The notes under the pieces: model-generated | Database searches by the model: none | Told to the model about the DNA's origin: nothing | What the model saw: only the letters and a program-made list of their open reading frames with translations | DNA from: Actinomycetota bacterium | GTDB lineage: Bacteria > Actinomycetota > Thermoleophilia > Miltoncostaeales > Miltoncostaeaceae | Length of the DNA: 33,874 nt | Reading direction: 5' to 3' | NCBI GenBank assembly: GCA_963169235.1 | Contig: CAUJCX010000045.1 | Location: forward strand, 1 to 33,874 | Translations under genes and position numbers: made by a program | Shown: positions 4,014 to 13,566 of the stretch, one piece after another | Position numbering within the stretch: the first letter of the stretch is position 1 | Layout of the letters: each line of letters begins with the position of its first letter

Positions 4014-5176
4014 CGGGCGCCCCGCCGCCCGCCCGCCACGAGCATCAGCGCGACCACGGCGAGGGCGGGCACCAGCCCGAACGCGCGCCGGGGGCCGACG
4101 GCGTCGGCCAGGGCCCCCAGCACGAACGGCGCGGCCAGGATCGCCAGCGACGCCCCCACCGCCGCCCGCGTCGTGGCCGGGGCGGCCAGGTTGGGCGGCG
4201 CCGCGCCGATCGCCAGCGACAAGCACATGGGGTACACCACCGACACCCCCAGGCCCAGAAGCGCCAGGCCCGCCACGCTGCCCGCGGGCGTCGCCCACGC
4301 CCAGAACACCAGCGCCCCCGCCAGCAGCATCGCGAACGACGCGCCCACCAGCGCGGACGGCGCCCGGGTGACCGCCAGCCGGCCGCCCACCAGGCGCCCC
4401 ACGCCGATGCCTGCGACGAACACCGTCAGCAGGCCGCTGGCCGACGCGTCGCTCAGCCGCACCTCGCTGGACAGGTAGTCGACGGCCCAGAAGCTGACGC
4501 AGAACTCGGCCGCGACGCCGCACACCAGCGCGCCGAACCAGCGCCAGTACGGTCCTCCCAGGCGGCTGCCGTCGGGCGCATCGTGCGCCTCGGCCACCGC
4601 CGTCACGTGCGGCGCCGGGGGCAGCGTGCGCCCCAGCGCCACCACCCCCGCTGCCGCGACGGCCCCCACCAGCAGCCCGGTCCACCACGGCGCGCCCCCC
4701 GCGATCGCCGCGCCGATGGCCAGCGGCGCCACCGCCCCCAGCAGCCCGGCGACGCAGTTGGCCTCGGTGAGGGCCACGGCGCGGGCGTACGGCTGGCGCG
4801 CCTGGATGACCAGGGGCACCACGATGGTGGCCAGCGAGCCGCCCGCCCCCAGCACGGCCGCGACGGCCAGCACCCACCCCAGGCCGGGTGCGACGGCGAA
4901 GCCGACGGCCGCGACGCCGATGGCCGCGCACGCCCCGCACAGAAGCGCCCGCTGCGACCACCGCACCAGCAGCCGCGATGCCGCCAGGCTGGCGGCCAGC
5001 GAGCCCAGCGCCAGGGCCGTCCCCACAGCCCCGATCTGGGTGCGGCTGACGTCCAGTTCGTCGCGCAGGGCGGCCAGCGTGGGACCCATCGAGTAGAGCA
5101 CGTAGCCCCACAGGCCGACCGTCGCGTACGCGATCCACACGGCCCGGTCGCGCGTCAGCGTGGTGCTGGCCGTCAC
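4010..5176 (-). CDS. Major facilitator superfamily transporter
   Basis: 388 residues from the GTG at 5176, with GGAG 8 bases upstream. Twelve hydrophobic segments run through the protein. The first is AVWIAYATVGLWGYVLYSMG, and the MFS loop 2-3 region lies near AASRLLVRWSQRALLCG (a degenerate G..aDr.GrR). A central hydrophilic break (PPAPHVTAVAEAHDAPDGS) separates the two six-helix halves. The second half repeats the pattern with GVGRLVGGRLAV. The substrate is unknown. It is divergent from the ROK kinase with only 40 bases between the starts, so the two promoters must overlap. A sugar-importer plus sugar-kinase pairing is possible. The frame is open far upstream of 5176, but that part is antisense to the kinase and not coding-like. 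Confidence 0.9.
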   Translation of the reverse strand: MTASTTLTRDRAVWIAYATVGLWGYVLYSMGPTLAALRDELDVSRTQIGAVGTALALGSLAASLAASRLLVRWSQRALLCGACAAIGVAAVGFAVAPGLGWVLAVAAVLGAGGSLATIVVPLVIQARQPYARAVALTEANCVAGLLGAVAPLAIGAAIAGGAPWWTGLLVGAVAAAGVVALGRTLPPAPHVTAVAEAHDAPDGSRLGGPYWRWFGALVCGVAAEFCVSFWAVDYLSSEVRLSDASASGLLTVFVAGIGVGRLVGGRLAVTRAPSALVGASFAMLLAGALVFWAWATPAGSVAGLALLGLGVSVVYPMCLSLAIGAAPPNLAAPATTRAAVGASLAILAAPFVLGALADAVGPRRAFGLVPALAVVALMLVAGGRRGAR

Positions 5177-5216
5177 GGCGTAGGCTCCAAAGGAAGGGAT
5201 ACGGATCGGGGGCGCG

Positions 5217-6113
5217 ATGATACTGGCGGGCATCGAGACCGGTGGCACCACATGCCGTCTCGCGCTGTGGCGTGACGGCGAGGTGGTGCGCCGCGCCGTG
5301 GTGCCCACGACGAGTGCCGACGGCACCATCGTCACCATGGCGAAGTTCTTCGCGCCCGGACCGCAGGTGGACGCCGTGGGCCTGGCCGCGTTCGGGCCCA
5401 TCGACCTCCGCCCCGGACCCGGCCACGGCACGCTGCTGGCCACGCCCAAGCCCGGCTGGTCGGGCGCCCCGCTGGTGGCGCGCCTGCGCGAGGCCATCGG
5501 CGCCCCGGTGTACGCCGACACCGACGTCAACGCGGCCGCCCTGGCCGAGGCCCGGTGGGGCGCAGCGCGCGGGCACGGCAACGTCGCCTACCTCACCATC
5601 GGCACGGGGGTCGGGGCGGGCATCCTGCACGACGGCGTCGCCGTGCACGGGCTGGCGCACCCGGAGGTCGGGCACCTGCGCGTGGGGAAGGCCGCCGGCG
5701 ACACGTTCCCCGGCACGTGCCCGTACCACGGCGACTGCCTGGAGGGGCTGGTGTCGGCCCCCGCCATCACGGCCCGGTGCGGCGCCGCGCCCGACGAGAT
5801 CGACGCCGCCACCCGCGCCCGCGTGGTACCGCAGATCGCGGCTCCCGTGGCCGACGGCCTGCGTTCGCTGGTGTACGCCGCCGCCCCCGAGGTGATCGTG
5901 ATGGGCGGTGGCATCTCGCGCATGGAGGGCCTGTACGACGCCACCCGCGAGCTGCTGGCCCAGTCGCTGGCCGCGTTCCCGGGGCTGCCCGAGCACCAGG
6001 ACCCCGGGTTCCTGGTGCGGCCGGGGCTGGGAGACGACGCAGGGCTGATGGGCGCGCTGGTGCTGGCCGGCGTGGACACCGAGCACCCCCCGCGGGTGGC
6101 CGGCGTGGCGTAG
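5217..6113 (+). CDS. ROK-family sugar kinase, fructokinase-like
   Basis: 298 residues. The N-terminal phosphate loop is GIETGGTTCRLAL (residues 5-17). The catalytic Asp is in DTDVNAAALAE (Asp103). The ATP-binding glycine loop is TIGTGVGAGI. The zinc site follows the fructokinase/mannokinase branch of ROK proteins: HPEVGH, then FPGTCPYHGDCLEGL, giving His153, Cys168, His171 and Cys174. It should phosphorylate a hexose such as fructose at C6 with ATP in the cytoplasm. There is no N-terminal helix-turn-helix, so it is a kinase and not a ROK repressor. TACGGA at 5200-5205 may be its -10. The length matches one-domain fructokinases. Substrate preference is inferred from the zinc motif only. Confidence 0.92.
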   Translation: MILAGIETGGTTCRLALWRDGEVVRRAVVPTTSADGTIVTMAKFFAPGPQVDAVGLAAFGPIDLRPGPGHGTLLATPKPGWSGAPLVARLREAIGAPVYADTDVNAAALAEARWGAARGHGNVAYLTIGTGVGAGILHDGVAVHGLAHPEVGHLRVGKAAGDTFPGTCPYHGDCLEGLVSAPAITARCGAAPDEIDAATRARVVPQIAAPVADGLRSLVYAAAPEVIVMGGGISRMEGLYDATRELLAQSLAAFPGLPEHQDPGFLVRPGLGDDAGLMGALVLAGVDTEHPPRVAGVA

Positions 6114-6175
6114 GACGCCCACCCCCGCGCCGGGGCCGACCGTCCCTTCCGGCCTCCGTCACCCCCCTGTCTACC

Positions 6176-6192
6176 TATGCTTCGCCTATGCT
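6176..6192 (+). promoter_or_regulatory. Tandem TATGCT motif at the mod operon promoter
   Basis: CCTATGCTTCG is followed at once by CCTATGCTCGC, an 11-base step, giving TATGCT at 6176-6181 and again at 6187-6192. Either copy could be the -10 of modA. The second copy would start a leader of about 24 bases holding the GGAGGAG ribosome-binding site. The one-turn repetition also makes it a candidate operator for the mod regulator. No match to the E. coli ModE site is claimed. Confidence 0.45.
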
Positions 6193-6223
6193 CGCCGTGC
6201 AACCACCACGGAGGAGTCACCGC

Positions 6224-6985
6224 ATGCGCGGCACGCCCGTCATCATCTCGACCGCGGTACTGGCCGCGTCGCTGGTCGCCACCGGCACGGCGGCCCGGAA
6301 GCCGCCCCCGCTGAAGGCGAACGCGACGCTCAACGGCATCACGGTGTTCGGCGCGGCGTCGCTGGCGCAGGCGTTCCCGGCCGCGATGCCGAAGGTGCGC
6401 TACAGCTTCGCGGGCTCCGACCAGCTGGCGTTCCAGATCGAGCAGGGCGCCCCGGCCGACGTGTTCGCGTCGGCCAACGTGAAGTACCCCGACGCCCTGT
6501 ACCGCAAGGGGCTCGTGGAGCAGCCCCACATCTTCGCGTACAACGTGCTGGTGGTGATCGTGCCGAAGGCGAACCCGGCGCGCATCCGCACGGTGAGCGA
6601 CCTGGCCCGCCCCGGGGTGAAGCTCGTCATCGGAGACGAGACCGTGCCGGTCGGCACGTACACGCGATCGGTGTTCAAGAAGCTCGATCTCAACGCCGCG
6701 CTCGGCAACGTGGTCAGCAACGAGCCCGATGTGCGGGGCGTCGTCACCAAGGTGGCCCTGGGCGAGGCCGACGCCGGCGTCGCGTACTGGACCGACTTCG
6801 TCAACCAGCGCGCGCGGGTGAAGTTCATCGCGATCCCCGCGTCCGCCCAGCCCACCGTCGCGTACTCCATCGCGGTGTCCAAGAGCGCCAAGGACCCGGC
6901 GAAGGCGCGCGCGTTCGTCCGCTACCTCGGCACGCCCATGGGCAAGCGCTGGCTGGTGAAGTTCGGCTTCCGGGTGCCGCGGTGA
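6224..6985 (+). CDS. modA: Molybdate ABC transporter, substrate-binding protein
   Basis: 253 residues, start ATG at 6224 behind a strong GGAGGAG site. A signal peptide covers about residues 1-24 (VIISTAVLAASLVATGTAA); there is no lipobox Cys. The mature domain opens TVFGAASLAQAF and continues with YSFAGSDQLAFQIEQGAPADVFASA, the ModA oxyanion-binding pattern (Ser/Gly loop, then ADVFASA). GDETVPVGTYTR matches the ModA VPxGxY motif. A late Tyr in EADAGVAYWTDF is also typical. It binds molybdate or tungstate outside the membrane and delivers it to ModB/ModC. It is first gene of a tight operon. The signal peptide could equally export a soluble or membrane-tethered form. Confidence 0.94.
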   Translation: MRGTPVIISTAVLAASLVATGTAARKPPPLKANATLNGITVFGAASLAQAFPAAMPKVRYSFAGSDQLAFQIEQGAPADVFASANVKYPDALYRKGLVEQPHIFAYNVLVVIVPKANPARIRTVSDLARPGVKLVIGDETVPVGTYTRSVFKKLDLNAALGNVVSNEPDVRGVVTKVALGEADAGVAYWTDFVNQRARVKFIAIPASAQPTVAYSIAVSKSAKDPAKARAFVRYLGTPMGKRWLVKFGFRVPR

Positions 6986-7001
6986 GCGCGCGCCGCCGGC
7001 C

Positions 7002-7820
7002 GTGAGGCACGTCTTCTGGGTGGTGGCGGCCGTGTTCCTGGCCGCCGTCCTGGCGTTCCTGATGCTGCCGGTGGCGGCGATCTTCCTCAACGTGCCGCCC
7101 ACCGAGGCGTACACGTCGACGGTGGCCACCGACGCGCTGTGGGTGACGGTCAAGACCAGCGCCATCGCCAACCTCGCGTTCCTCGTCGTGGGCACGCCCG
7201 CCGCGTACGTGCTGGCCACCACCCGCATCCCGGGCCGGGCGCTGCTGGTGACACTGTGCGAGCTGCCGCTGGTGATGCCGCCGGCGGTGGCCGGCATCGG
7301 CCTGCTGGCCGCGTTCGGGCGCGTGGGCCTCTTGGGCGAGCAGATCGAGGCGCTGGGCCTCACCATCGCGTTCAGCGAGGCCGCCGTGGTACTGGCGGTG
7401 GCGTTCGTGGCCGGGCCGCTGTACCTGCGCGGCGCCGTCGCCGCGTTCGCCGCCGTCGACCGTGACTGCACGGAGGCCGCGCGCACCCTGGGAGCGGGTC
7501 CCGCCCGCGTGTTCGCCCGGGTCGCCGTGCCGATGGCGGCCGGCGGGCTCGGCACCGCGTGGGCGACGGCGTTCGCCCGCGGCGTGGGAGAGTTCGGGGC
7601 CACCATCATCTTCGCGGGTTCGCTGCAGGGCATCACGCAGACCCTGCCGCTGGCCGTCTACTCGCAACTGGACGCCGACTTCGACCAGGCCCTCGCCATC
7701 GGGGCGCTGCTCATCCTGTTCGCGGCCGCCATCCTCATCACCGTCAGGCTCATCCCCGCATGCCACCGCTACTTCACGCGCACCTCCGCGTCCCGCGCCG
7801 CGACTTCGACGTCGCCGTAG
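7002..7820 (+). CDS. modB: Molybdate ABC transporter, permease
   Basis: 272 residues from the GTG at 7002, 16 bases after modA. About six membrane helices: VFWVVAAVFLAAVLAFLML, then LWVTVKTSAIANLAFLVVGTPAAYVL, LLVTLCELPLVMPPAVAGIGLL, and others to the end. The EAA coupling loop reads DRDCTEAARTLGAGPARVFARVAVPMA, followed by GVGEFGATIIFAGS, both characteristic of ModB/CysT permeases. The last 60 bases overlap the start of modC, so the C-terminal tail after ILITVRLIPA is encoded in an overlapping frame and may be loosely constrained. Forms the channel for ModA-delivered molybdate. Confidence 0.93.
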   Translation: MRHVFWVVAAVFLAAVLAFLMLPVAAIFLNVPPTEAYTSTVATDALWVTVKTSAIANLAFLVVGTPAAYVLATTRIPGRALLVTLCELPLVMPPAVAGIGLLAAFGRVGLLGEQIEALGLTIAFSEAAVVLAVAFVAGPLYLRGAVAAFAAVDRDCTEAARTLGAGPARVFARVAVPMAAGGLGTAWATAFARGVGEFGATIIFAGSLQGITQTLPLAVYSQLDADFDQALAIGALLILFAAAILITVRLIPACHRYFTRTSASRAATSTSP

Positions 7821-8473
7821 AGCTCGACGCCGGCCCGCAGACCGTCGCGATCGTGGGACCGTCGGGATCGGGCAAGACCACCCTGTTGCGCGCCGTGGCC
7901 GGGCTGGAGCGGCCCGTGGACGGCGAGATCACGGTGCAGGGCGAGACGTGGTTCCGAGCGCGGCCGCGCACCTGGACGCCTCCGGAGCGGCGGTCGGTGG
8001 GGCTGGTCTTCCAGCAGTTCGCGTTGTTCCCCCACATGACCGTCAGGCAGAACGTGGCGTTCGCGCGCGGGGACGACCCGGACGCGCTGCTCGAGCGCCT
8101 GGGGGTGCTGCACCTGGCCGACGCGCGGCCCGCGGCGATCTCGGGCGGTGAGCGCCAGCGGGTGGCCCTGGCGCGTGCCCTTGCGCGCCGTCCCCGGGTG
8201 CTCTTGCTGGATGAGCCCATGGCGGCGCTCGACCCGTTCACGCGTCAGGGGGTGCGGCGCGAACTCGCCGCGGTGCTCAGGATCCTCGCCCTGCCGACCC
8301 TGCTGGTGACGCACGACCGGGACGACCTGGCGCTGGCCGACCGGGTGGTGACGCTGGAGGCGGGCCGCGTCACCCAGGACGGCACGCTCGAGCAGCTCGC
8401 GTCCCGTCCCGCGACGCCGTTCGTGGCCACGCTCACCGCGCACGCGGCATCCCCATTAGGCTCCTCCGCATGA
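7760..8473 (+). CDS. modC: Molybdate ABC transporter, ATP-binding protein without TOBE domain
   Basis: 237 residues from the ATG at 7760, inside the end of modB. Walker A GPSGSGKTT is at about 33-41, the Q-loop in VFQQFALFPHMTV, the signature ISGGE at 127-131, Walker B VLLLDEP at 147-153, and the H-loop in LLVTHDRDD. These fit the ModC group. E. coli ModC is about 350 residues with a C-terminal TOBE/Mop domain; this one stops just after the ATPase domain. A Mop/TOBE domain is instead found in the protein encoded next, whose ATG overlaps the modC stop (ATGA). Earlier in-frame codons exist but belong to modB. The start used gives the usual short strand before Walker A. Confidence 0.92.
   Translation: MPPLLHAHLRVPRRDFDVAVELDAGPQTVAIVGPSGSGKTTLLRAVAGLERPVDGEITVQGETWFRARPRTWTPPERRSVGLVFQQFALFPHMTVRQNVAFARGDDPDALLERLGVLHLADARPAAISGGERQRVALARALARRPRVLLLDEPMAALDPFTRQGVRRELAAVLRILALPTLLVTHDRDDLALADRVVTLEAGRVTQDGTLEQLASRPATPFVATLTAHAASPLGSSA
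8457..8462 (+). promoter_or_regulatory. Predicted internal -10 box (TAGGCT) for the HTH-Mop regulator
   Basis: TAGGCT ends 7 bases before the ATG at 8470, the spacing of a leaderless promoter. It lies inside the last codons of modC, so the regulator could be made both from the operon and from its own promoter. Confidence 0.45.
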
Positions 8474-8859
8474 GCACCGAACGCACCCTCACCGCCGGCG
8501 AGGCCGCCCGCGCGCTCGGCATCAGCCTCGACACCCTGCGGCGCTGGGACCGTCAGGGCCGCATCGCCGTGCGCCGCGACGCCGCCAACCGGCGGGTGGT
8601 GACGGCCGACGAGGTCGCCCGGCTGCGGGGCGAGCGCGAGACCGGCCTCAGCACCCGCAACCGCTTCCCCGGCGTGGTGCGCAGCGTCACCGTCGACGGG
8701 CTGATGGCGCAGGTGGAGATCGACGTCACGGAGCCCACCCGCGTCGTGGCCATCATCACCGCGGCCGCGGCGGAGGACCTGGGCCTGCGCGTGGGGAGCC
8801 CGGCGACGGCGCTGGTGAAGTCGACGTCCGTGGCGGTCAGCACGAGGCCGCGGGAGTAG
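8470..8859 (+). CDS. MerR-type HTH + Mop/TOBE molybdate-binding protein, probable regulator of the mod operon
   Basis: 129 residues. Residues 6-45 are a MerR/excisionase-type helix-turn-helix (LTAGEAARALGISLDTLRRWDRQGRI, then RRVVTADEVARL). Residues 62-125 form one Mop/TOBE domain: STRNRFPGVVRSVTVDGLMAQVEIDV, then VVAIITAAAAEDLGLRVGSPATALVKSTSV. Mop domains bind molybdate or tungstate, often as oligomers. A DNA-binding head joined to a Mop domain is the logic of ModE but with a different DNA-binding fold. It overlaps modC by 4 bases. Expected role: molybdate-responsive control of modABC, possibly at the tandem TATGCT motif, and perhaps also molybdate storage or regulation of ModC, which lacks its own TOBE domain. 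The role in control is inference from domains and position. Confidence 0.9.
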   Translation: MSTERTLTAGEAARALGISLDTLRRWDRQGRIAVRRDAANRRVVTADEVARLRGERETGLSTRNRFPGVVRSVTVDGLMAQVEIDVTEPTRVVAIITAAAAEDLGLRVGSPATALVKSTSVAVSTRPRE

Positions 8860-8866
8860 CGGCTCG

Positions 8867-8881
8867 GCGCCCTACGGGCGC
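8867..8881. terminator. Short hairpin between convergent genes
   Basis: GCGCCC-TAC-GGGCGC is a perfect 6-bp stem with a 3-base loop between the HTH-Mop gene (plus) and the 40-residue membrane protein (minus), covering the latter's stop codon. No T-tract on either strand. Possible bidirectional terminator. Confidence 0.35.
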
Positions 8882-8994
8882 AGCACCTCGAGCAGGCCGG
8901 CGAGGTCGGCGATGAGCATCAGCACCAGCACGAGCGCCGGGATGACGTACCACTTCCATGCGTTCGTCCAGCTCTGTGCGCGGGTGTCAGCCAT
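8872..8994 (-). CDS. 40-residue single-helix membrane protein coupled to the FMN glutamate-synthase-like gene
   Basis: Reads MADTRAQSWTNAWKWYVIPA, then ALVLVLMLIADLAGLLEVLRP, and stops at TAG 8872-8874. One membrane helix at about residues 16-35, preceded by a Trp-rich amphipathic head. The ATG at 8994 overlaps the stop of the upstream gene by 8 bases, so translation is very likely coupled. Codon use is fully coding-like (third positions mostly G/C). The partner protein also has a single N-terminal membrane helix, so a small subunit or anchor for that enzyme is a reasonable guess. I know no named family for it. Its small size explains why automatic annotation could miss it. Confidence 0.7.
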   Translation of the reverse strand: MADTRAQSWTNAWKWYVIPALVLVLMLIADLAGLLEVLRP

Positions 8995-10510
8995 GCGCCA
9001 AGGGTATCGCCTGGTCCATCAGCTCGGTCACGTCCCGAATGTCCTTCTCGCCGGGGAGCGACCATCCCTTCTCGTACCGGAACCGGGCCCACGGGTTCTG
9101 CGGCACGCCGTGGTCGAGCAGCTCGATGTGCTCCAGCGTGAGCAGCCCGGGGTGGGCGACGCCGCACGCGTTGGCCAGCTTGAGCAGCTCCGAGCGCAGC
9201 ACCCGCACGTACGTACCCGCCCGCTGCCCCTTGGACTGGGGTTCGAGGCCCCTCTGGAGCCACTGTGACTGGGTGGTGACGCCCACCGGGCAGTGGCCGG
9301 TGTGGCAGCGCTGCGCCTGGATGCAGCCGATCGACAGCATCGCCTCGCGGGCGATGTGCACCATGTCGACGCCCAGCGCCAAGGCCAGCGCGGCCCGGTC
9401 GGGCAGCCCCAGCCGGCCCGAGCCGATGAACGTGACCTTCTGCTGCAGCCCGCGCTCGGCGAACGCGCTGAACACGCGGGCGTGGGCGGCCATGAACGGC
9501 AGCGAGACGTGGTCGGCGAACACCAGCGGCGCGGCGCCCGTGCCCCCCTCCCCTCCGTCGACGGTGATGAAGTCGACGCCGCGGGTGCCCGACTCCATCT
9601 CGGCCGCGAGGCTGTCCCAGAAGCGGCGCGATCCGATGGCCGCCTTGATGCCCACCGGCAGCCCGGTGGCCTCGGCGATGCGCTCCACGAAGTCGAGCAT
9701 GCTGTCGATGTCGCTGAACTCCGCGTGGCGGGACGGGCTGATGCAGTCGACGCCCTCGGGCACGCCGCGGGCCGCCGCGATCTCGGCCGACACCTTGGCC
9801 GCGGGCAGCACGCCACCCTGGCCGGGCTTGGCGCCCTGCGACAGCTTGATCTCGATGGCCTTCACCGGATCGCGCTGGCAGGCCTCCACCAGCCGCTCCA
9901 GCGAGAAGCGCCCGTCGGCGTCGCGGCAGCCGAAGTACGCGGTCCCCAGCTGCAGCATCAGGTCACCGCCGTGGCGGTGGTACTTCGAGATGCCGCCCTC
10001 CCCGGTGTTGTGCATGCATCCCGCCAGCGCCGCGCCCCGGTTGAGCGCCTCGACGGCATTGGCCGACATCGAGCCGAAGCTCATGCCCGAGATGTTCACC
10101 AGCGAGGCGGGCCGGAACGCGTGCCGCCGGCCGCGGGCCTCCCCCATCACCTTCGCGGACGGCACCGCCTCCACCGCGGGGGCCGCGGCCGGGTACGGGA
10201 ACGCGGCGGGGCGCAGGATGATGTAGCTGGCCCGGGCATCCATGTGGCTGTCGGAGCCGAAACCGAAGTAGTTGTTCTGACGCTTGGACGACGCGTACAC
10301 CCAGCGCCGCTCGTTGCGGTTGAACGGCCGCTCCTGGTCGTTGCCCGTGACGATGTACTGCCGCAGCTCCGGGCCGATCTTCTCGAGCAGGTAGCGCAGG
10401 TGCCCGACGATGGGGAAGTTGCGCAAGACGGCGTGGCGCGGCTGCACCACGTCGTACAGGGCGACGCCAACCAGCACGGCAACGACGACACCGAGGATCC
10501 ACCACCACAC
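8987..10510 (-). CDS. Membrane-anchored FMN-binding glutamate-synthase-domain protein
   Basis: 507 residues. I place the start at the GTG of 10510 because GGAGG lies 6 bases upstream and a -10 box (TAGCGT, 10549-10544) would start the transcript after the alternative ATG at 10543. An N-terminal membrane helix (VWWWILGVVVAVLVGVALYDVV) leads into the glutamate-synthase FMN domain: FRPASLVNISGMSFGSMSANAVEALNRGA, ISKYHRHGGD, IEIKLSQGAKPGQGGVLP, FITVDGGEGGTGAAP, and the iron-sulfur pattern CIQAQRCHTGHCPVG. It has the ammonia-donating chemistry core of GltS but no amidotransferase domain, as in the stand-alone FMN-binding glutamate synthase family found in many bacteria. Its real substrate is not known to me; these proteins should not be read as true glutamate synthases without test. 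Confidence 0.92.
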   Translation of the reverse strand: MWWWILGVVVAVLVGVALYDVVQPRHAVLRNFPIVGHLRYLLEKIGPELRQYIVTGNDQERPFNRNERRWVYASSKRQNNYFGFGSDSHMDARASYIILRPAAFPYPAAAPAVEAVPSAKVMGEARGRRHAFRPASLVNISGMSFGSMSANAVEALNRGAALAGCMHNTGEGGISKYHRHGGDLMLQLGTAYFGCRDADGRFSLERLVEACQRDPVKAIEIKLSQGAKPGQGGVLPAAKVSAEIAAARGVPEGVDCISPSRHAEFSDIDSMLDFVERIAEATGLPVGIKAAIGSRRFWDSLAAEMESGTRGVDFITVDGGEGGTGAAPLVFADHVSLPFMAAHARVFSAFAERGLQQKVTFIGSGRLGLPDRAALALALGVDMVHIAREAMLSIGCIQAQRCHTGHCPVGVTTQSQWLQRGLEPQSKGQRAGTYVRVLRSELLKLANACGVAHPGLLTLEHIELLDHGVPQNPWARFRYEKGWSLPGEKDIRDVTELMDQAIPLAHG

Positions 10511-10543
10511 GCCGCACCTCCACGGGGACACACCGTGATGCAC

Positions 10544-10549
10544 ACGCTA
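10544..10549 (-). promoter_or_regulatory. Predicted -10 box (TAGCGT) of the FMN glutamate-synthase-like gene
   Basis: On the minus strand TAGCGT reads from 10549 to 10544. A start about 7 bases later gives a leader of roughly 27 bases containing GGAGG before the GTG at 10510. It argues against the upstream ATG at 10543. Confidence 0.4.
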
Positions 10550-10594
10550 CGCCACGGCGGCCGATTCGCCTGCATCGGTTCTCCCCGCGTCTCG

Positions 10595-10600
10595 TACACT
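10595..10600 (+). promoter_or_regulatory. Predicted -10 box (TACACT) of the AAA ATPase gene
   Basis: TACACT at 10595 predicts a transcript start near 10608 and a short leader carrying GAGGAG four bases before the GTG at 10632. Divergent from the promoter at 10544-10549. Confidence 0.4.
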
Positions 10601-10631
10601 CGGTCGGGTTACCGTCGCCTCGAGGAGCGCT

Positions 10632-12062
10632 GTGCCGCAGGATCGCCTGTCCATCGTGACCCACAGCGTCGACCGCGCGCTGCTCGAGAGCCGCATGGCC
10701 GACGCCCGCGCCGCCGTCGAGCGCCTGGACGGGGCCACGCTGACACCCGTGGAGGCGGCGGGCCTCCTGCGCCTGAAGGGCCGCATCGCCATCGCCGACG
10801 GCAACCTGGCCGAGGGCGCCGCCATGCTGGCCGACGCGGTGGCGGGCGCCCGCACGGCCGGGCGGCTCGACCTGCTGGCCGACGGGTGGCTGACCGACCT
10901 GGGCGCCGCCCGCACCGCGGCGGGACTGCCCGACCAGGCGCTGGTGTCGCTGCGCGAGGCCGCCGAGCTGACGCTGCGGCTGCGGGGCGCGGCCGACTGG
11001 GCCACCGTCCGCGCGCATCGCCTGCTGGGCGCGGCCCTGGCGGCCGCGGGCGACCGGGACGGGGCCGCGGACGCCCTCACCGTCGCCGCGGACGGGGCCG
11101 AGCAGGCCGTCCCGGCCGACCCGGACGTGCGCGCCGCCGTCTCCACCGAGCGCACGGGAGCCCTGCGGGCCGCGGGCCGTTCTTCCGGGTCGCCGGGAAC
11201 GGACGGCGCGGCGACGGAGGCCACGGCCGAGGAGATCGCCGCCGACCTCACGGCCGCCCGCCACGAGCTGGACGAGCTGGTGGGGCTCACCGCCATCAAG
11301 TCGCAGATCACGGCCCTCACCGACCTGCTGGCCGTGCAGGCGCGCCGCAAGGCCGAGGGGCTGCGCATCCCCGAGGTCTCGCTGCACCTGGTGTTCACGG
11401 GCCCGCCCGGTACCGGCAAGACCACCGTCGCGCGCCTCATCGGCCGCATCTACCGGGGCCTCGGGCTGCTGAAATCGGGCCACCTCGTGGAGGTCGACCG
11501 GGCCGGCCTGGTGGCCGGCTACGTCGGCCAGACCGCCCAGAAGGTGGACGAGGTGGTGACCAAGGCCCTCGACGGGGTGCTGTTCGTCGACGAGGCGTAC
11601 GCGCTGGCCCAGGGGGGCGAGTCCGACTTCGGGCCCGAGGCCCTCGCCGCGCTGCTGAAGCGCATGGAGGACCACCGCGACCGCCTGGCGGTCGTGCTCG
11701 CCGGGTACGACGAGCCCATGCAGAAGCTCTTGTCCTCCAACCCCGGCCTCCGCAGCCGCTTCCCCACCGTGCTGGCGTTCACCACGTACTCGGCGGACGA
11801 GCTGGCCGAGATCTTCCGCTCGACGGCCGCGAAGTACGACTACCGGCTGACCCCCGAGGCCGACGCCGCGATGGTGGAGGTGGTGGCCGACATGCGCGCC
11901 CACGCGGGCCCCGACTTCGGCAACGCGCGGGCCATGCGCAACCTGTTCGAGGACGCCATCGCGGCGCACGCCACCCGCGTGGTCAACGAGGCCGACGCCG
12001 ATCTGTCGCTCCTGGACGCGGACGACATCCGCTCGGCCGCCAAGCCCGACGGCACCCGCTGA
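10632..12062 (+). CDS. TPR-like + CbxX/EccA-type AAA ATPase
   Basis: 476 residues from the GTG at 10632 (GAGGAG four bases upstream). Residues about 15-180 are Ala/Leu-rich helical repeats in TPR style (LLRLKGRIAIADGNLAEGAAML, then LVSLREAAELTLRLRG). The AAA domain follows: ELDELVGLTAIKSQI before Walker A GPPGTGKT (257-264), the pore-loop region with GYVGQTAQK, Walker B LFVDEAYAL (317-325), and the arginine-finger segment GLRSRFP (372-378). The fold and motifs are those of the CbbX/CfxQ and EccA family, which remodel protein complexes (Rubisco activation, type VII secretion). No Rubisco or ESX genes are near, so the client is unknown. About 100 residues shorter than mycobacterial EccA as I recall it. 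Cytoplasmic. Confidence 0.9.
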   Translation: MPQDRLSIVTHSVDRALLESRMADARAAVERLDGATLTPVEAAGLLRLKGRIAIADGNLAEGAAMLADAVAGARTAGRLDLLADGWLTDLGAARTAAGLPDQALVSLREAAELTLRLRGAADWATVRAHRLLGAALAAAGDRDGAADALTVAADGAEQAVPADPDVRAAVSTERTGALRAAGRSSGSPGTDGAATEATAEEIAADLTAARHELDELVGLTAIKSQITALTDLLAVQARRKAEGLRIPEVSLHLVFTGPPGTGKTTVARLIGRIYRGLGLLKSGHLVEVDRAGLVAGYVGQTAQKVDEVVTKALDGVLFVDEAYALAQGGESDFGPEALAALLKRMEDHRDRLAVVLAGYDEPMQKLLSSNPGLRSRFPTVLAFTTYSADELAEIFRSTAAKYDYRLTPEADAAMVEVVADMRAHAGPDFGNARAMRNLFEDAIAAHATRVVNEADADLSLLDADDIRSAAKPDGTR

Positions 12063-12081
12063 CGCGCACGGCCCGCGCGTC
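12061..12081 (+). terminator. Hairpin after the AAA ATPase gene
   Basis: GACGCGC (12061-12067) and GCGCGTC (12075-12081) form a perfect 7-bp stem with a 7-base loop, starting within the stop codon. It sits between convergent genes (the next stop is at 12090), so it may serve both. Confidence 0.45.
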
Positions 12082-12089
12082 GCTCCCCG

Positions 12090-12398
12090 TCAGGCCCCGG
12101 AGGCCCCGCGCAGGAACGAGGTGAACACCTGGCGCACGCCAGGGCGGCGCGGCGCCGCCCGCTCGATGCGGGCGATCTCCTCCTCGAGGGCCTCCAGGCG
12201 GTTCATGCGCACGCACAGATCGTCGGTGGGCCCGGACGAGATCGCCTCGGCGCACACCCGCTGACGCTCGCGGCGCAGCACGCCGCGGAGGGTCCGCAAC
12301 TCACCCGGCGCGAGCGTGCGCAGGTACTGGGGATGCGCCGCCGCGATCACCGCGGTGGCGTCGGACGAGCGCAGGGCAAGGGAGGGGACGTACGTCAT
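12090..12398 (-). CDS. Hypothetical protein, helical, 102 residues
   Basis: Begins MTYVPSLALRSSDATAVIAAA. The middle is rich in charged helix (ELRTLRGVLRRERQRVCAE, then MNRLEALEEEIARIERAA), which could form a short coiled coil. The tail is RQVFTSFLRGASGA. No signal peptide, membrane helix or catalytic motif. Codon use is clearly coding-like. TATGAC at 12415-12410 may be its -10, giving a very short leader. It is convergent with the AAA ATPase gene and 75 bases away from the dehydrogenase-like gene. I do not recognise a family. Confidence 0.7.
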   Translation of the reverse strand: MTYVPSLALRSSDATAVIAAAHPQYLRTLAPGELRTLRGVLRRERQRVCAEAISSGPTDDLCVRMNRLEALEEEIARIERAAPRRPGVRQVFTSFLRGASGA

Positions 12399-12474
12399 GG
12401 TTCATGCGTGTCATAGCACCCCCACGGGGCAGATTCCAGCCGCGCCTCTTGCGTTTTCGCCGTCCCATTCGCGC

Positions 12475-13566
12475 TCAACGGGGAGAGAACCGCACCACCG
12501 CGCCGGACTGCCACAGCGTGAGGTAGATTCGGCCCCGCGCGTCGGACGTCATGCCCAGCGGATCGAAACGCCGAAAACCCCAGGCGAATCGTGAGATCCG
12601 GCCGCGGTAGCCGGACGCGGTGCGGGTGAGGCGCACGCGATCGACCGTGCTGGTGACCGGGCGCGAGAACAGCGTCGACCCGTTGTTGGCCACGAACGCC
12701 GTCAGGCGGCGATCGCCGAACCCCCGCACCACCGCGACGCCGTCGGTGGACGCGTGCGGGTGCGTGCGGGCGACGGCGGGGACGCGGCCGCGGCACGGCG
12801 CACCCCCCTGCCCCCAGCAGCCGGGGAAGCCGTAGTCGCGGGCCGCGCGCGACGTGTCCACCACGTTGACCTCGTCCGGGGGCGCCGTGAGGCCCAGGTC
12901 GTCGCGGCCGTTGTCGGTCACGACCAGGTGCCGGGTGCCGGGAATGAACGCCAGCCCGAACGGGTTGCGAAGCCCACGGGCCACCACGCCGACCCGCCGG
13001 GTGCGCGGGTCGACCCGCAGCACGGACGCCGAGAAGCGCGCGGGCCCGCGCGCCGTGTCGGCCACGCTGCCGAGCCCCACGTAGAGCATGCCGTCGGGTC
13101 CGGCGACCACGTTGTCGATGGTGTGGCGCCCCACCGGCAGGTCGCCCACCAGCACCCGGCGTGACCGGAAGCGCCGCCCGTCGAACCCGCGCAGCGCCAG
13201 CACCTGGCCCCGGCGCGCCGCCACGTCGGCGTCCGACCCGCCGGAGGGCGTGACGTTGGTGGCGTACAGCACGCCCCCGTGCCAGGTGAGCCCGAGCGCC
13301 AGGAACATGTCCGACACCACCTGCCGGGGGCGCGCCCCCGCGGACGGCGCGTACCAGATGCCGTCGCTGGCCAGGTGGTAGTTGCCCGAGCTGGCGATCC
13401 ACATGCCGCCGCGCGCGTCCAGGGCGATGGCGGTGGGGCGCGGCACGCCCGTCACCACCGTCTGGGTGCGCACCCCCGGGACGGTGGTGATGGCCGCCGC
13501 CGGCGCCGCGGCCGCCAGGGCCGTCACCACCGCCGCCGCGAGGGAACACCGCCTCACGCCGGCCAC
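12475..13566 (-). CDS. Secreted glucose/sorbosone-dehydrogenase-like beta-propeller protein
   Basis: 363 residues from the GTG at 13566; a second GTG at 13557 is equally possible and neither has a clear ribosome-binding site. The signal peptide is CSLAAAVVTALAAAAPAAA. The propeller carries the GSDH (PQQ-dependent sugar dehydrogenase) marks: GRHTIDNVVAGPDGMLYVGLG, LRNPFGLAFIPG (the Arg-Asn pair that contacts the cofactor in soluble glucose dehydrogenase), HLVVTDNGRDDLG, PDEVNVVD and YGFPGCWG. It should act outside the membrane, oxidising a sugar or related alcohol if PQQ is bound. The cofactor and substrate are inferred from family only. It follows the VWA gene in the same direction, with a perfect 10-bp hairpin between, so co-transcription may be partial. 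Confidence 0.88.
   Translation of the reverse strand: MAGVRRCSLAAAVVTALAAAAPAAAITTVPGVRTQTVVTGVPRPTAIALDARGGMWIASSGNYHLASDGIWYAPSAGARPRQVVSDMFLALGLTWHGGVLYATNVTPSGGSDADVAARRGQVLALRGFDGRRFRSRRVLVGDLPVGRHTIDNVVAGPDGMLYVGLGSVADTARGPARFSASVLRVDPRTRRVGVVARGLRNPFGLAFIPGTRHLVVTDNGRDDLGLTAPPDEVNVVDTSRAARDYGFPGCWGQGGAPCRGRVPAVARTHPHASTDGVAVVRGFGDRRLTAFVANNGSTLFSRPVTSTVDRVRLTRTASGYRGRISRFAWGFRRFDPLGMTSDARGRIYLTLWQSGAVVRFSPR

Follow-up and report, generated by a model that had tools for sequence, protein, structure and literature searches.

CydX and YohP are tiny single-pass membrane proteins of bacteria. Related literature includes a YohP paper (PMC12719787) and a small-protein census (PMC11955535). 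The peptide described here is of the same kind: it is shorter than 50 residues, has one helix and no catalytic domain, and is easily overlooked. It differs from CydX and YohP by its own W-x-W-Y and G-x6-P motifs and by another gene setting, a distinction drawn on motifs and setting, and it has no family match in the libraries searched. Pfam, NCBIfam, PHROGs and PDB sequences yielded no convincing match for 15 members of the family; the best E values over the four libraries were 0.051, 0.017, 0.057 and 0.46, no library family matched more than 3 of the 15, and no significant match was shared among them. Nothing on this peptide was found in the literature, as judged by titles and abstract openings.

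Two further described families bear on the locus. The FMN-binding glutamate synthase family (PF01645, short form) adjoins the small gene in 8 of 15 genomes; it differs in being an enzyme of about 500 aa, and the small gene occurs without that enzyme. CcmD resembles the peptide in that both are small single-helix proteins of organisms with a Ccm system, yet the peptide has no CcmD match and its charge pattern suggests an orientation opposite to that of CcmD. The small gene represents a new lineage-specific family within a known kind, the tiny single-pass membrane proteins that are often start/stop-coupled to a neighbour.

The small gene and its product

The window, that is the whole stretch of 33,874 nucleotides that was analysed, carries the small gene on its reverse strand, together with the neighbours listed in Table 1. 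The gene runs from ATG to TAG over 40 codons and its product is MADTRAQSWTNAWKWYVIPALVLVLMLIADLAGLLEVLRP. Its ATG (8994-8992) lies within the gltS-like frame, whose TGA occupies 8989-8987, and its 3' end stops short of the convergent MerR/TOBE gene. The window sequence confirms the 40-residue frame of the preliminary description with its start eight bases inside the end of the enzyme gene, and the membrane helix proposed there for the small protein is seen both as one hydrophobic stretch and as a one-helix AlphaFold2 model. The gene is easily overlooked. Given that the ORF listing of the window has 56 frames of 30 aa or more touching positions 5000-12500, a 40-aa frame by itself says little here; the small gene rises above chance because it is conserved.

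Table 1. Features of the window around the small gene
Feature	Coordinates	Strand	Basis
Small gene (40 aa; W-x-W-Y N-part, one membrane helix, D-L-A-G-x6-P tail)	8872..8994	-	frame, homologues and helix model
Overlap of small-gene ATG with gltS-like TGA (ATGGCTGA), 8 nt	8987..8994	-	window sequence; equal length in G001
gltS-like FMN glutamate-synthase-like protein, up to 518 aa	8987..10543	-	PF01645 at 2.9e-79; relatives; G001 start
MerR-type HTH + TOBE/Mop protein, convergent, downstream bound of unit	8470..8859	+	PF00376 and PF03459 over cut-off; TIGR00638 just under cut-off
AAA ATPase (SpoVK/EccA/CbbX-like), divergent	10632..12062	+	PF00004, PF17866; NCBIfam matches below cut-off

The start called in the relative of the same genus, G001 (MWWW...), suggests that the true gltS-like start here is a GTG near 10510. 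The hydrophobic, Trp-rich N-terminus of the enzyme (VWWWILGVVVAVLVGVALYDVV) is visible in the translation and would be the membrane helix that the preliminary description ascribes to the enzyme. In G001 and G015 a similar AAA ATPase likewise points away from the gltS-like gene, and this gene order is therefore old; besides the window copy, the arrangement in genera g1 and g6 is found at L073:3495-4931 and L076:4554-6020. On the other side, window positions 6200-8859 hold by eye the modA, modB and modC-like genes of a molybdate ABC transporter, up to the MerR-HTH + TOBE/Mop gene, whose product is possibly a small molybdate-sensing regulator.

The window peptide has a single hydrophobic stretch, its best 18-residue Kyte-Doolittle mean being 2.57. 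Across the family the peptides measure 37-44 aa, with 18-residue means of 2.12-2.74 in all 15 copies; by length and hydropathy every copy is thus a protein of fewer than 50 residues with one hydrophobic helix, the helix itself having been modelled for the window copy. AlphaFold2 places that helix at residues 3-38 (mean pLDDT 79, pTM 0.41). Aligned, the 15 copies share an invariant start, W13, W15, Y16, G33 and P40: common to all are a W-x-W-Y within residues 10-17, one hydrophobic stretch, and a G followed by a P seven residues on (G-x6-P). In every one of the 15 copies the N-part exceeds the C-part in net charge (0 to +4 against -1 to -4, termini included). By the positive-inside rule these charges suggest an N-in, C-out orientation.

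Inheritance within the Miltoncostaea family

A search of 101 relatives with the window peptide gave a strong match in G001 (5.9e-12), of the window's own genus, with weaker matches in further genera. In G001 the frame is open and has the 8-nt overlap of the window, the two copies being 59% identical in the peptide search and 62% in the alignment. Homologues occur in 15 of the 42 genomes examined from the family, the window's included, and in 9 of its 12 genera; this family (f1), of the class Thermoleophilia, includes Miltoncostaea oceani. Alignment-based searches of 399 genomes of the class and 396 of the phylum returned strong matches (E 1e-14 or better) in this family only, scoring at most 18 candidates per genome, so that a diverged copy could escape. 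Beyond the family the class search gave 14 rows, the best at 4.9e-5, in open frames of 95 to 1115 aa, and one weak row (0.0037) is a family genome of g9.

The profile used for the class search includes the 15 copies themselves, which makes its E values circular, and therefore profiles were rebuilt for each copy without the target's whole genus and run against all six frames of the DNA surrounding that copy (4.4 to 34 kb). Each of the 15 copies was recovered as the top frame, with E values from 4.7e-9 to 1.8e-18; over these 15 stretches the second-best frame never fell below 0.08 and the best reversed-peptide control reached 0.023. The pattern of substitutions points the same way. We find that dS exceeds dN in all eight within-genus pairs, mildly in three of them (0.63 vs 0.34 for G000/G001, 0.55 vs 0.37 for G012/G019 and 0.44 vs 0.28 for G012/G025), and that over all pairs third codon positions differ most (0.53 vs 0.40 and 0.36). 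At most 8 nt are shared with the upstream neighbour, and in 15 of 15 copies the frame is open and the cross-genus conservation extends beyond the gene overlap. Judging by this conservation, the small gene is genuine and inherited in one actinobacterial family.

A CcmF tree bears on the history of the gene; of its 36 rows, 31 are from the family and 14 have the small gene, and five changes were counted on it. It is consistent with an old gene that has been lost from g7 and from a group of g9 and g10, whose support (86/92) is below the starred level. Two genomes scored without the small gene, G013 and G022, may be assembly gaps: the contig of the former ends within an oxidoreductase-like gene, with a gltS-like piece at another contig end, and the latter is 86% complete and has no yjbQ that was found. 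As far as found, 27 of the 42 family genomes are without the small gene, which is therefore dispensable for the lineage. A tblastn search of plasmids with the peptide gave nothing beyond two chance-level Pseudomonas matches (E 9). A 6-kb piece of contig 3 of G025 is 100% identical to the Miltoncostaea oceani plasmid NZ_CP064358.1.

Gene settings and candidate partners

The setting of the small gene varies among the 15 genomes, and no gene is linked to it in every carrier. In eight it lies directly after a gltS-like gene (G000, G001, G002, G006, G008, G015, G020 and G023), a pairing that spans four genera (g1, g2, g6, g8) with overlaps of 8 or 4 nt or gaps of 10-20 nt. It stands directly before yjbQ in G004, G005, G011 and G014, between yjbQ and an acuC-like gene in G012, between a STAS-like gene (144 nt off) and an acuC-like gene in G019, and, in G025 (G025:C1:1351563-1351676), ahead of an acuC-like gene with a PAS-like gene on its other side. 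Upstream start/stop overlaps measure 8 nt in G000 and G001 and 4 nt in G006, G008, G015 and G025; downstream ones occur in G004, G006, G011, G015, G020 and G023, an oxidoreductase-like gene being the overlapped next gene in G006, G015, G020, G023 and probably, by eye, G002. The names oxidoreductase, AcuC, STAS, PAS, CcmE and CcmH come from reading the translations by eye, and the YjbQ and CcmF calls rest on the profiles PF01894 and PF01578.

Several candidate partners of the peptide may be weighed. It might work alongside CcmE/CcmF as a small accessory protein in cytochrome c maturation (Ccm system I), a reading that we consider rather unlikely. Its appeal lies in linkage: 13 of the 15 carriers have yjbQ and ccmF on one contig, with the small gene inside the stretch in 12 of these, and in genera that are without the small gene (g7, g9, g10) the two lie on separate contigs wherever both were found, these being draft contigs on which the distance is unproven. 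However, the thirteenth genome is the window's own, where yjbQ and ccmF stay together on another contig, apart from the small gene; no ccm gene immediately adjoins the small gene in the 15 genomes read; ccmF is retained in genera without it; and common descent of the locus may by itself account for the linkage. Several genomes, moreover, have separate weak CcmD-like frames after CcmC (G005, G012, G014 and G025; E 0.0016 to 0.5), none of which passes the Pfam cut-off in 61 genomes. Those frames lie elsewhere than the small gene and the 15 members give no match to Pfam CcmD (PF04995) at E 1, and on these grounds we reject an identity of the peptide with CcmD. Two of the frames right after CcmC, G025:C1:338034-338138 (L233) and G012:C1:242144-242257, are possibly diverged CcmD genes of the family.

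That the peptide serves the gltS-like FMN enzyme as a dedicated membrane anchor or small subunit, translationally coupled to it and packing against its putative N-terminal helix, we regard as unlikely. The preliminary description had raised such a small-subunit idea from the window alone, and the eight genomes in which the small gene directly follows the enzyme gene, together with the Trp-rich hydrophobic stretch with which the enzyme likewise opens, speak for it. Yet three carriers of the small gene, G004 (93% complete), G005 (97%) and G025 (100%), have no gltS-like orthologue that was found, their enzyme matches lying only within the large glutamate synthase, in frames of 1571 to 1618 aa. 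In G011 and G012 the two genes are present and unlinked. G008 and G011 have in common, at their left edge, a divergent pyridoxamine-oxidase-like gene (by eye), after which G008 shows the gltS-like gene and then the peptide, and G011, with a listed contamination of 7%, the peptide alone, its gltS-like gene being on another contig. G014 (80% complete) holds, besides the large enzyme, only more distant gltS-like relatives (41-42%); G019 has a 51%-identical piece of the enzyme at a contig end and was not scored as lacking it.

The converse holds as well. Of 30 gltS-like loci read, 22 have no copy of the small gene behind the enzyme gene, one of these, L029, being cut off by its contig end, and among the loci of 80 named relatives, from many phyla, the peptide is found only in L114-L116, which are the G001, G006 and G015 contigs, leaving 77 without a copy, L174 and L191 being among the few with little sequence there. 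At E 1e-60 the enzyme is present in 10 of the 15 family genomes with the peptide and in 20 of the 27 without, so the two genes do not track each other. Given the three carriers without an orthologue, the unlinked genes of G011 and these proportions, the peptide does not always accompany the enzyme gene and is not a dedicated subunit, and this is rejected as the main reading, although the peptide may yet contact the enzyme in genomes where the two are coupled. What stands of the preliminary description is the real small membrane protein and a pairing kept in eight genomes; a short frame after the enzyme gene, which it proposed to look for in relatives and whose absence from close relatives would have counted against it, is present in the genus mate G001 and, this one included, in 8 of the 15 carriers, and absent behind most of the gltS-like loci read.

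An association with yjbQ itself is improbable. This gene, UPF0047, which we take to encode a side enzyme with thiamine-phosphate synthase activity, is the commonest linked gene: 13 of 15 carriers have it no more than about 5 kb from the small gene on one contig, and in five (G004, G005, G011, G012 and G014) it immediately adjoins the small gene. The exceptions are G000, where it is on another contig, and G002, 99% complete, which has the small gene and in which yjbQ was not found. Besides G002, it speaks against the association that 12 of the 22 surveyed family genomes lacking the small gene have yjbQ and that YjbQ proteins are generally soluble. An isocitrate-lyase-like gene near ccmE was likewise dropped as a travelling partner in a survey of 42 genomes, 26 of them from the family, because its pattern of presence does not match: genomes of g9 and g10 and a single one of g7 have it but not the peptide, and in three g12 genomes that have the peptide it was not found. 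In the window's genome an antitoxin-like and PIN-domain-like gene pair, named by eye (L242:4779-5455), separates the isocitrate-lyase-like gene from yjbQ; the matching stretch of G001 leaves only about 60 nt between the two. That the small gene is nothing but a chance open frame of a G+C-rich genome, as its shortness and the many spurious frames nearby might suggest, is hardly tenable and is rejected on the recovery by leave-genus-out profiles, at 4.7e-9 or better, with conservation over nine genera and in varied gene settings.

A putative accessory peptide of a membrane partner

We return to the reading that we favour, with somewhat better than even confidence, in which the small gene truly codes for a micro-protein crossing the inner membrane once, is vertically inherited in the Miltoncostaea family, and yields an accessory or regulatory peptide that would bind a membrane partner. 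Of this, the frame, its conservation and its close packing against adjoining genes are established by the sequences. In the window, ribosomes finishing the gltS-like gene would restart at the overlapping ATG of the small gene. To judge from its charges, the peptide would insert so that the end carrying R/K stays inside, W-x-W-Y sits at the inner face of the membrane and the acidic tail points outward. Presumably without catalysis of its own, it would bind a membrane partner through its helix, a partner that would not be exclusively the gltS-like enzyme. Since the peptide is without a catalytic motif, an accessory or regulatory role is the likeliest, and the peptide is probably an accessory or regulatory peptide of a membrane partner; the AlphaFold2 model, a lone helix, is uninformative on any partner, which we count against this reading together with the 27 family genomes in which the gene was not found, the lack of a gene linked to it in every carrier and the only mildly low dN/dS of three of the eight pairs. 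Because the gene is usually kept with gltS-like, oxidoreductase-like, yjbQ, ccmE, ccmF and ccmH genes, a membrane component near the locus is the first place to look. More tentatively, the peptide could be the founding member of a new Miltoncostaeaceae family of membrane accessory proteins controlling or stabilising a membrane complex at or near yjbQ-ccmEFH, with W-x-W-Y making contacts at the inner face and G-x6-P at the outer.

With the small gene, a little-studied lineage of actinobacteria, of which Miltoncostaea oceani is in culture, gains a conserved gene family that has no model in the libraries searched. The case also illustrates how the adjacency of two genes, even with an overlap of 8 nt, may give a false impression of partnership, and that cross-genus comparison parts the peptide from the enzyme that adjoins it.
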